Origin: Ignavibacterium sp.
GTDB lineage: Bacteria; Zixibacteria; MSB-5A5; GN15; PGXB01
NCBI GenBank assembly: GCA_020724775.1
Contig: DYGG01000025.1
Coordinates: 1 to 46,105, forward strand
Length of the DNA stretch: 46,105 nucleotides
Direction: 5' to 3'
Shown piece after piece: positions 853 to 9,311 of this stretch. Position 1 is the first letter of the stretch; each line of letters starts with the position of its first letter. Made by a program: the position numbers and the translations under genes. The notes beneath the pieces were generated by a model, which saw only the letters and a program-made list of their open reading frames with translations, ran no database searches and was not told where the DNA came from.

Positions 853-884
853 CATAAGAAAACCCGCGCCATTTCGACGCGGGC
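853..884 (-). terminator. Intrinsic terminator after the HesB-like selenoprotein gene
   Basis: On the minus strand a GCCCGCG / CGCGGGT stem with a short loop is followed directly by TTTTCTT. It sits 25 bp after the TAA of the selenoprotein gene, so it ends that single-gene transcript. Confidence 0.75.
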
Positions 885-908: not shown

Positions 909-1229
909 TTAAGAGCACTTACAGTCGCCGCAACCCCCCTCACCAACCGAAATTTTATAGCCGCTGGCACCTTCTATCGTGGTAATATAATCAATACTGA
1001 TTGCCCCCGACTGAGATAGGTACTTATGCAGACCGCCATCTATATAGGCTATCACGCCGTTTGATTCAAGAAGTTCCAGTCCATCTGTCGACTCATCCAG
1101 AGCCAGTCCCAATTGGGGACCGCTTCAGCCGGCGCCCTGAAAAAATATTATAAGTTTCTTATTCCCCACTTCGGGATTGATGAGAACTTTTTTGAGTTCT
1201 TCACTCGCTTTATCGGTAACTACCAGCAT
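909..1229 (-). CDS. HesB/IscA-like selenoprotein (in-frame TGA = Sec35)
   Basis: From the ATG at 1229 the frame reads 34 residues, meets TGA at 1125-1127, then stays open for 71 more residues to the stop at 909, giving 106 residues. Both halves match one HesB/IscA-like domain: N-terminal MLVVTDKASEEL and KKLIIFFQGAG, then U35, then SGPQLGLALDE. Cys is expected at position 35, so TGA stands exactly where the family has its first ligand or redox Cys. A second cluster, CGDCKC, sits at 100-105. An AAAGG lies 8 bp before the ATG, a -35/-10 promoter lies upstream and a terminator downstream, so the locus looks intact rather than decayed. HesB-like selenoproteins are known in other bacteria. Likely role: iron-sulfur or redox chemistry in the cytoplasm (inference). 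An automatic caller would give only a truncated 67-residue protein from a TTG at 1112. No selA, selB or selC is in this window. Confidence 0.85.
1090..1127 (-). promoter_or_regulatory. Candidate bacterial SECIS element at the Sec codon
   Basis: Just 3' of the UGA the transcript can fold GGUCCC/GGGACU around a CAAUU loop (1105-1121). Alternatively it can fold GACU/AGUC (1105-1108 with 1090-1093) around an 11-base loop that starts with GG, about 20 nt after the UGA. Bacterial SECIS hairpins lie inside the coding region in this window and usually carry a G early in the apical loop, so the second fold fits better. Folding was done by eye, so the exact structure is uncertain. Confidence 0.45.
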
Positions 1230-1275
1230 CTTCAAGCCTTTCTGCAAAGGTGTCTAAATACCATTATTTGGAGAA

Positions 1276-1303
1276 ATTATACAACATTCCCAGGTATAAT
1301 CAA
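1276..1303 (-). promoter_or_regulatory. Sigma-70-type promoter of the selenoprotein gene
   Basis: On the minus strand TTGATT (1298-1303) and TATAAT (1276-1281) are separated by 16 bp, with a perfect -10. The predicted start is near 1269, giving a leader of about 40 nt. Confidence 0.65.
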
Positions 1304-5129: not shown

Positions 5130-8100
5130 TTACCTTGGCTTCAGCAGGTCATATTTTTTCAGCATTCGACATAGAGTTGACAGAGGAATGTTGAGTTTCC
5201 TCGATACTGCCGATTTGTTCCAATTGTTTTCCGAGAGTAGCCGTTTCAACGTGGATGGGTCAACCGCGCCCTTACCTCGAGCGGTCCCCTCCTGAGGCTG
5301 AAAATTGACAATCTCCTGCGGAAGATGCGTTTTTTCGATGCGGGCGCCGGGATACAGAATGCAGAGACGTTCCACCAGGTTTTTCAACTCTCGAACATTT
5401 CCGGGCCAATTGTAATTCATCAGATAGGGCATGGTGCTATCAGAGATGGCAGGTCTTCTGCCCCGGTTGCACGTGGAAAGACTGAGGAAGTGCTCTATTA
5501 ATAGAGGAATATCATCTTCTCTTTCGCGGAGCGGTGGTATCTGAAGAGTGATGGTATTTATGCGGTAAAAGAGGTCCTCCCGGAACTTACCGGTTTTTAC
5601 CAACTCCTTCATCTCTTTGTTGGTAGCGGCAACATAGCGGATGTCGGTAGAGACCAAGCGGTTGCTGCCAACTTTTTCGAACTCTTGATATTCGATGGCT
5701 CTCAGAATCTTGCTTTGCGCTTCCAGCGGAAGGTCGGCAATCTCATCAAGAAATAGTGTGCCGGTATCAGCCGCGGAAAGTTTTCCTTCTCTTTCATCCA
5801 CACCGGTTGCCACGTTCCTGGCGATGCCAAACAGTTCACTCTCCATTAGAGTCGCCGGGATGGCAGCACAATTCAATTTTATCAACGGTTTTTCGGAGCG
5901 AAAACTCAGGTCGTGAATTAAGTGAGCCAGCAGTTCCTTGCCGGTGCCGCTTTCTCCCAGAATCAAAACTGGGGCGTTGCTTTTGGCGGCTAATTCCAGG
6001 CTGGACAAAAGATCTTTCATCTTGGAATTCCGGGTAATCAGGTGCTGGCCCGCTCCCAGCGTGCTCAAGTCCTGCTTCAGTTGCCTGGCGCTGATATCCT
6101 GAATACGAAATTTCTGTATGGTCTGGTATAGCGATGAGATGAAATTGGCTATCGAATTGATGAACAATATATCCTGGGGTTTGAAAAGCGCCGGGATGGT
6201 ATGATGGTCCAGATAGAGTACTCCCCGGATTTCGCCTTCCGCATGTATCGGAACGCAGATGACCGAAAGAATATTGTTTGCCATTACGCTTTTGAATCCT
6301 TTGGTTCTCTCATCCTGAAGCGCATTCGCGATAATCATCGGTTCTATATTGTGCGCCACTCGGTCGGTTATATGCGACGAAATCTTCCTTACGTCCGCTA
6401 TATCACTTTCGTCAAAATTGACATAGGTTTTCGGGTAGAAATCTTTCTTCTGTTCGTGTCTTACCAGGAATACTCCCCTTTCGGCGCCGGTCTCATCGAC
6501 CGCATATTCAACCAGTTTTGTCAGTGCCAGGTCATAATCCGTGACATTCTTAAGTATTTCCGAAATTCCGCTCAAGACATTGACAATTCTCGCTGAGTCC
6601 TCACGCGTATCCGGTAGGGCATCAATCTGACGAGTAATTTTCTCTTTCATAACTGAGTTCCTTAAGTTATCCGCAATGCTTCGGGCATGTTCATAATATT
6701 CAAGCGCCAGCCTTCTCTTGCCCATCTCGCAATAGAAATCCCCAATCCGCCGGCAGATAAGCGAGGCATGAAAACTGTCATTGGAGTGCAGAAGAATCTT
6801 CAACGCAATCTTCAAGTAGATATGGTTTTTGGAAATGTTCCCGGCGCCGTCATGGAAAGACCTGAGTTCGTTTGCCGCTTGAAATATTGGCACGGGAGAG
6901 CGCTTGAGAAACGGGGGGGAAGTATTATCATCCGGCAGGGCTATCTTGAAGTTTTTTCCTGAAAATGCGGCAAGGATATGAAATAAGCAGACACCGGCGT
7001 AATAATGGCAGTGCAAAGAACGCAACTCGTTCCAATTCTCGAGAAGAATCGAGGGTTCGGCGTCCTCATAGACAACAGCATACAATCGCCGTAGCAGCAG
7101 GGACTCCTGAAGCGATGCTTTATCGGCAATCTGCTCAAAGGATTCAAAGGCATGACCTATACATTGCTCGAACTCGGATTTATCGCCGGTATAGAAAGCA
7201 ATCAATGCCAGGTTAAAATAGATTTTGCCCCAGTTGCGGTCCTTTTCACCCTGGGTATAAAGATAGTAAGCGGAGAAGAGAGATTCCTTTGCCGGCTCTA
7301 ATTCCCCCATTCTTAAGTGCAAATTTCCTTTAAGAAAATAATAGTTCCGGTAAAAACTACTGTTGCCGATAAACCTGGCGCAGGAAAGGTATTTCTGGAG
7401 CCAGAATCTCGCTTTGTTATATTCTGCCAGACGAGCGTAACTGAGCACCAGATTGCTGTAAACGGCCGAAACCGCCGTGCTGCCGCTTCTCCCCTCAGCC
7501 ATGCTAACAGCAAGTTTCCCAAACTTGACAGACTTATTATATTCCGCCTGCTCAAAATATATCATCGAGAGGTTGCCCAAGGGAGCAATCAGGTCTTTCC
7601 GCTCCGACGACTTTTGGAGTAACTTGAGTCCTGCGAGAAAATCCTTCTCTGCATTCTCAAACGCTCCGGATTTCCAATGCCATAAGCCCGATATTACTTT
7701 TAATCTGCCCAGTTCGGGATAGCAGGCAAGCCGCTCTGCGTCCTGCATGAGTTCTTCCAGAATTCGTGGCGCCGAGTCTCGTCGCGTCGTGAATATTTCT
7801 ATTGATGCCAGTTGCCGGTTAAATGCCAACTTTGAGAGGGCATCATCATAGTTGTCCGCGATGGTAATCCCCCGCGTTATGAATCCGCGGGCAGCGGCAT
7901 AGTCGGCTTTTAGAAGACATACATTCACCAAAGTCTTCAGAAGTTGCAATTGACGGGATAAATCACTCTCGGAAAGGCTTAGCCCCCTTTCCAGAACTGA
8001 TTTCGTTTCGTCAATCCGGCCAAGTTCTAACCCCAATGCACTCAACTCCTGAATCAGGTCAAATGATTCCTTATCTGCGGAAATGCTCTTATCCTGCTCT

Positions 8101-9311
8101 ATGCTATCGTAGCAGTCTTTCAAAACATAGAACGCTTTTAACGGTTGCTCCTCTTTTCTTAATTTGTCAGCCTGCCTCACAGATTTACGAACACGGTTTC
8201 TCGAAATACGCTCAATGGAATTGTTACCTTCGGCAAGGCGGGCAGGGCCGAGTTTGGGCTGAAGTACCTTCCTGATTTCAGCATCATCCAATTCAACTTG
8301 CCAGAATTCACCGTGACGTTCTAAAGCGGCTGTTTCCAGGAGTCTTCTTATTTTTTTCAGAGTCGTGACACTATTGACCATGAATTCTTTGTTCAGCGAC
8401 TCAAGGATTTCACGCGGAATCCCTATGAGGTTGTTTTGTTCGGAGATGATGTCTGAGATGTGCGACTGCCTCTTTCTAAGCCTGTCACTCAATTCCCAAA
8501 AATCGGCTATCAATTTCATTCCTAATAATCGTCGCTGAATTTTGCGCAGTTCCTGCAGGTCAATTATCTGATACCGGTAAAGCGTTTCGGAAATATTAAG
8601 CGGGCGGCTGCCGCGTGAATCTTCTGTCAGCACTCGCGCCGTTCTCTTAAATTTCTCAAGAGAGGACTTTAATTGCAGACCTTCGTCAGAAGAACTGCTG
8701 GACAACTGCTCCGTCGCTATTAAGAGAGATTTACCGAGGGAATAACTGTCGGACTGGGGCGCCACAATTTCATTCCGGAAAATTTCCGGCGCGATTAATC
8801 CCGGTGTTCCAAAAATTCTCGAGTCGGGACAGGTATTTGATTCGGTCAGAAAGTCGAGGTCACAGAGTAAGACCCTGGTCTGGTTCGGGGAACGGCTTAT
8901 CCGGAAATTTTCAAGTTTGATATCGCCATGGACAAGTTTCAATAAATGCAGATAGTCTATAATCTCGGTTATCTGCACCAGTGCCTCGGGATAACGATTC
9001 AACAAATGTGAGGCGGATAAATCCTGCCAGTCAGAGTCAGAGAGATGAGGATATTCGATAAAGAGATTGCCGTTATCTGAAAATCGCCTTACCGCTTTAT
9101 TTATTATGCTGCTTTTTATACGTCTTTGCAGGTCAAAGGAGCGCCAGAGGATTGCTCTGGCACTTTCTTTGCCTATAGGCGAGTTTGGAGAAGGAATTTT
9201 CACAAAACGCTTGCTGCCGGAAACCGGGTCTTCGGCAAGCCAAGACTGGCTCAAAGCGTTCTCGGACAGTAAAGTTGAAAGTTTAAAAGTTTGTTGAACC
9301 GCAAATCTCAA
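5130..9311 (-). CDS. Ser/Thr kinase-like / TPR / GAF / sigma-54 AAA+ / Fis-HTH fusion regulator
   Basis: A 1393-residue one-protein signalling chain. Residues about 10-230 are a eukaryotic-type protein kinase fold with K38, HGDIKLEN (128-135; Asp130, no HRD Arg), DLD in place of DFG (151-153) and APE (174-176); the Gly-rich loop is poor. Residues about 370-900 are helical TPR-like repeats. A GAF domain follows (about 915-1070). A sigma-54-type AAA+ domain has Walker A GESGTGKE near 1115 and Walker B TLFLDEI near 1184, but the GAFTGA loop reads NVATGV near 1165. The C-terminus is a Fis-type helix-turn-helix ([23 protein letters not shown]). The start is a TTG at 9311 with GAGG upstream; a TTGACC-N17-TATATT promoter lies further up. 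Likely role: senses a signal through the kinase, TPR or GAF parts and activates sigma-54 promoters, possibly the flagellar ones in this window (inference). Confidence 0.85.

Follow-up and report, generated by a model that had tools for sequence, protein, structure and literature searches.

The window, a stretch of 46,105 nucleotides, corresponds to contig C56 of a draft genome of 3.07 Mb (95.7% complete, 87 contigs). On its minus strand, a frame runs from the ATG at 1229 to the TAA at 909-911 and contains a single internal TGA, at 1127-1125 (Table 1). Read through this codon, the product is MLVVTDKASEELKKVLINPEVGNKKLIIFFQGAG-U-SGPQLGLALDE...GGCGDCKCS*. The initial annotation had described one frame with a lone TGA, both sides of which fit one HesB/IscA-like domain. 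The frame was borne out by the sequence and its translation, and the domain by a single profile that spans the two sides (NF038090, 3e-14; TIGR01911, 1.8e-9); the IscA_HesB_Se profile covers residues 1-95 of the read-through product. The promoter, the ribosome binding site, and the terminator had also been called intact. This stands for the ribosome binding site, and the other two are consistent with the claim but weakly supported, because the signal scan expects nearly as many sites by chance (promoters, 3 found and 1.3 expected; terminators, 1 found and 0.7 expected). The gaps to the end of the upstream gene and to the start of the downstream gene are 161 nt and 142 nt, respectively, and the gene appears to form a unit by itself. 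No conserved operon was found, as the flanking ORFs across 61 loci share only lineage-specific neighbours. Elsewhere in the window (5130-9311), a protein of 1393 aa combines Ser/Thr kinase, TPR, GAF, sigma-54 activator, and Fis-type HTH domains.

Table 1. Features of the selenoprotein locus, in window positions.
Feature	Position	Strand	Details
Predicted HesB/IscA-like selenoprotein gene	909..1229	-	106 residues and TAA stop
In-frame TGA, predicted selenocysteine 35	1125..1127	-	First A-type ligand Cys position; motif UxGP
Bacterial SECIS hairpin	1089..1105	-	Stem UGGCUC / GAGUCG; frozen codons, covariation, bSECIS rules
Second small hairpin	1105..1121	-	GGUCCC-CAAUU-GGGACU; between the UGA and the SECIS loop
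C-terminal Cys tail	912..938	-	GGCGDCKCS, with Cys100, Cys103, and Cys105; alignment
Ribosome binding site	1237..1242	-	GAAAGG, 7 nt ahead of the ATG; sequence
Sigma-70-like promoter	1276..1303	-	TTGATT-16-TATAAT; weak statistical support
Intrinsic-terminator-like hairpin	862..884	-	10 bp and T tract; weak statistical support

A selenoprotein at this locus had been taken to imply selA, selB, selC, and selD, and the search of the window genome recovered all four. The tRNA-Sec gene (selC) was found with Rfam (73 bits) and with ARAGORN (anticodon TCA), selA (485 bits) and selB (325 bits) are adjacent on contig C75, and selD (393 bits) contains its own single in-frame TGA (AGUASKLGP). With these four genes, the organism qualifies as a Sec-decoding host. 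Above-cut-off selA was detected in 116 of the 132 Zixiibacteriota genomes, and the phylum as a whole is very probably Sec-using. The selD gene (L018; G000 contig C25, start 1471) is itself a selenoprotein gene, and a SECIS-like hairpin with the loop GUU is located about 20 nt downstream of its TGA. Another Zixibacteria selA (L200; G059 contig C64) has an in-frame TGA at 1570-1572, residue 324 (VFAI-TGA-EKLL), where the SelA of the window genome has Leu; this TGA is probably a mutation or an assembly error and not a Sec codon. Formate dehydrogenase was considered as a second selenoprotein of the window genome, and its six matches there carry no TGA, none of them exceeding the family cut-off. 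A YHS-domain search added no information.

The search for homologues covered 132 genomes of the phylum Zixiibacteriota and gave 84 copies with 31-67% identity to the window protein. The Sec codon is TGA in 80 of the 84 copies and a Cys codon (TGC or TGT) in the other four. Outside Zixibacteria, 47 relatives were retrieved, chiefly from Syntrophales and other delta lineages but also from two Acidobacteria and one Salipaludibacillus, and 46 of them have TGA. This outside sample, in which Cys forms may be under-represented, is the best 80 of 304 confirmed loci. Thus, with few exceptions the homologues carry TGA and not the sense codons that the initial annotation had named as a possible refutation, and an error in the raw reads, another of its concerns, is excluded because independent assemblies share the TGA at the same codon. 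Nor is the TGA a product of chance, since one profile matches both of its sides and 80 phylum homologues keep it at the exact codon. The suggestion that the novelty lies in a single lineage did not hold, as the gene occurs widely across Zixiibacteriota and is akin to the deltaproteobacterial members already known, whereas the compact single-gene unit named with it agrees with the intergenic gaps given above. No relatives were detected in viral contigs in two scans. The collection scan could not use the 49-member alignment, where conservation was too low in every stretch, and it succeeded with a shorter one that began past the Sec codon.

The same data bear on the meaning of the codon. TGA is the stop codon of 14 of the 33 window genes and of several homologues of the selenoprotein gene, so the code is not reassigned. 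Together with the dedicated Sec system of the genome and with Cys as the only natural replacement at the site, this makes a genome-wide reassignment of TGA, or its chance readthrough, to a non-Sec amino acid extremely improbable, and we rejected it. The terminal UGA of some homologues was also considered as a second Sec codon and was rejected; it is read as an ordinary stop past the last Cys.

Downstream of the UGA lies a bacterial SECIS hairpin, an element absent from the initial annotation. It pairs positions 20-25 after the UGA with positions 31-36 around the 5-nt loop UGGAU (1099-1095), which starts 25 nt past the UGA and has G at its second position. The bSECIS model describes a loop of 3-9 nt, a stem of 4-16 bp, a G in the first two loop positions, and a distance of 16-37 nt from the UGA (PMC13188914), and the window hairpin conforms to it in loop, stem, G, and spacing. 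Relative to the energy limit of -7.5 kcal/mol, the 44-nt region is within the limit (-15.1) and the isolated apical hairpin is slightly weaker (-6.8). Folded alone, the 56-nt region was not significantly stable (z -0.71); the SECIS emerges from the comparative data and not from the folding of a single sequence.

In the homologues, codons 8-12 past the TGA stay frozen as GCT or ACT, CTG, GAT, GAG, and TCA (GCT CTG GAT GAG TCA in the window, for Ala, Leu, Asp, Glu, and Ser); they were observed at 79-99%, where 15-59% is expected. Codon 16, observed at 0.30, matches its expectation of 0.31, and synonymous codons elsewhere in these genes vary freely. The 4-bp core of the SECIS forms in 79 of 80 Sec genes, compared with a mean of 3.2 and a maximum of 9 in 500 synonymous recodings, a null in which codons are redrawn from the same genes' own usage and shared ancestry is not modelled. 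Judging from the sequences, ancestry alone would be an insufficient cause of this conservation, because protein identity falls to about 31% and the neighbouring codons vary freely. Compensatory double changes occur at three pairs: C23-G33 to U-A (L088), U24-A32 to C-G (L065), and G22-U34 to U-A (L085). When the partner was slid by 1-3 columns, the paired cells dropped from 96% to 22-53%. RNAalifold recovered the same hairpin unprompted, and it is also present in homologues from Syntrophales, other 'Deltaproteobacteria', Acidobacteria, and one Bacillales genome. The second small hairpin folds in the window sequence and in the RNAalifold consensus, and in the MFE structure of only 25 of 80 homologues. 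The codons beside the UGA (1130-1122 in the window, and in the homologues) are biased, with GGC before and AGC or GGC after it (81-84% vs. 29-37% expected), and a CCC...GGG mini-hairpin precedes the SECIS.

We consider it close to certain, on comparative sequence grounds, that UGA 35 of the HesB-like protein is decoded as Sec. SelB with Sec-tRNA-Sec would bind the hairpin at 1105-1089 and insert selenocysteine at this codon; without the insertion, translation would end after 34 residues. A pseudogene, or a stop created by a sequencing or assembly error, might be suspected in a draft genome of 87 contigs, the more so as the gene is missing from the only congener genome. Such an origin has hardly any probability left in view of the same-codon TGA in 80 copies from independent assemblies, the synonymously frozen and covarying RNA hairpin, and the intact frame and C-terminal Cys residues, and the comparative data refute it. 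The congener (G077, the only same-genus genome compared; 98% complete) contains selA and no copy of the selenoprotein gene, so the selenoprotein is dispensable in that genus or the gene is missing from the G077 assembly. Standard annotation would split or miss the selenoprotein frame, and the gene is corrected here.

By its sequence, the window protein is a divergent member, in the broad sense, of the known HesB-like selenoprotein family (IscA_HesB_Se, motif UxGP), within a phylum-wide clade. The initial reading as a HesB-like selenoprotein is thus supported by the sel genes, the TGA of the homologues, and the alignment with the family Cys position. The protein scores under the curated cut-offs (NF038090, 53.1 of 85; TIGR01911, 38 of 66.35; Pfam PF01521, 19.4 of 26.3 bits), which are naming thresholds and not biological features. 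An accepted deltaproteobacterial homologue reaches 116 on NF038090 and only 40 on TIGR01911, and therefore the curated cut-offs do not cover such divergence. Common ancestry with the accepted members is indicated by 41% identity (E 1e-22) to a deltaproteobacterial member above the NF038090 cut-off, by a 131-member tree, and by the shared frozen SECIS. The protein resembles the members of NF038090 and TIGR01911 in Sec at the first ligand Cys, USGP, size, fold, and the bacterial SECIS. It differs in that the Zixibacteria copies form their own clade and that the window member, with 53 bits against 85, would escape automatic naming. The cataloguing of HesB-like selenoproteins goes back to the mid-2000s (PMC1794560, PMC13188914). 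The literature search for selenoproteins of Zixibacteria found no study, which is not proof of absence; one paper only lists a Zixibacteria genome (PMC8318568).

The AlphaFold2 model has a pLDDT of 87, with the Cys-rich tail of low confidence. Its top Foldseek matches were HI1723, IscA (including the cluster-bound 1x0g), and SufA, and the predicted fold is IscA/ErpA-like. In the alignment, Sec35 falls on the GCSG-motif Cys of ErpA-like HI1723 and of Aquifex AQ_1857, which agrees with the earlier placement of the TGA at the family Cys position. The ligands of A-type carriers are Cys35, Cys99, and Cys101, and these three positions (35, 99, and 101 of IscA) are kept as Sec35, Cys103, and Cys105; in the homologue alignment, Cys103 and Cys105 are each conserved to 90% or more. 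The IscA/ErpA/SufA carriers thus share the fold and the three ligand positions with the window family, which differs from them by Sec in place of Cys35, by GP where ordinary members have GF or GL after CS, and by a Cys-rich tail that is longer and variable where they have CGCG.

Based on analogy with these carriers, a role as an A-type carrier of Fe-S clusters (or of metal) with a selenolate ligand appears somewhat the better supported. A cluster or a metal ion would be held by Sec35 and Cys103/Cys105, and the selenolate may alter cluster lability or redox behaviour. There is a substantial, if smaller, chance that the selenoprotein does not deliver Fe-S clusters and that Sec35 with the C-terminal Cys residues forms a redox pair or a site for another metal. 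The spacing of the Cys tail varies among the homologues, no Fe-S operon neighbours were recognised at 61 loci, and the window genome already encodes a separate ordinary Cys-type IscA-like protein (GGCSG ... SCGCGSSF), so the selenoprotein is not the sole A-type candidate. Other selenoproteins with a possible metal-binding Sec have been discussed (PMC13188914). The HesB-like selenoprotein of M. maripaludis, found via mutagenesis and 75Se labelling, has a function called unclear, and its disruption mutant still fixes nitrogen, unimpaired (PMC11097638). Against such a role stand the kept A-type ligand positions and the match of the predicted fold to cluster-bound IscA. If the carrier reading is correct, the selenoprotein would act as an auxiliary carrier next to the ordinary Cys-type protein.

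The tree was built from 131 members and the genome's own IscA-like protein, with few columns and a very long outgroup branch. In it, a single clade (support 99/95) beside other phyla unites the Zixibacteria copies. The dominant state is Sec, and the tree requires three Sec/Cys changes. The Zixibacteria Cys copies cluster with their genomes' own Sec copies (99/87 and 99/91). Sec and Cys copies share the genomes of L046, L067, L069, and L070, in tandem in three of them and 5.3 kb apart in the fourth. The four Cys copies of the phylum break 1 to 5 of the 6 SECIS pairs, and the SECIS is gone wholly or nearly in three of them and partly in L046. This resembles the Sec-to-Cys HesB-like protein of Desulfitobacterium hafniense (PMC1794560) in that the Cys forms descend from Sec forms and that L046 retains a decaying remnant of the SECIS. 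The difference is that the Zixibacteria Cys copy stands beside a retained Sec copy. The near-invariant SECIS across phyla and the coexisting Sec and Cys copies make up a natural experiment on the contribution of selenium to an A-type Fe-S protein.

It is a tentative and rather doubtful proposal that the Zixibacteria clade is a subfamily set apart by its function, that its selenolate-ligated A-type site would be ancestral in the phylum, and that the near-invariant LGMALDES motif would be kept largely since its codons form the SECIS. In the Cys duplicates, which are freed from the SECIS, LGMALDES has changed to sequences such as TVDTK. The SECIS, and not the protein, may be what maintains the ALDES motif, which three of the Cys copies have also lost.
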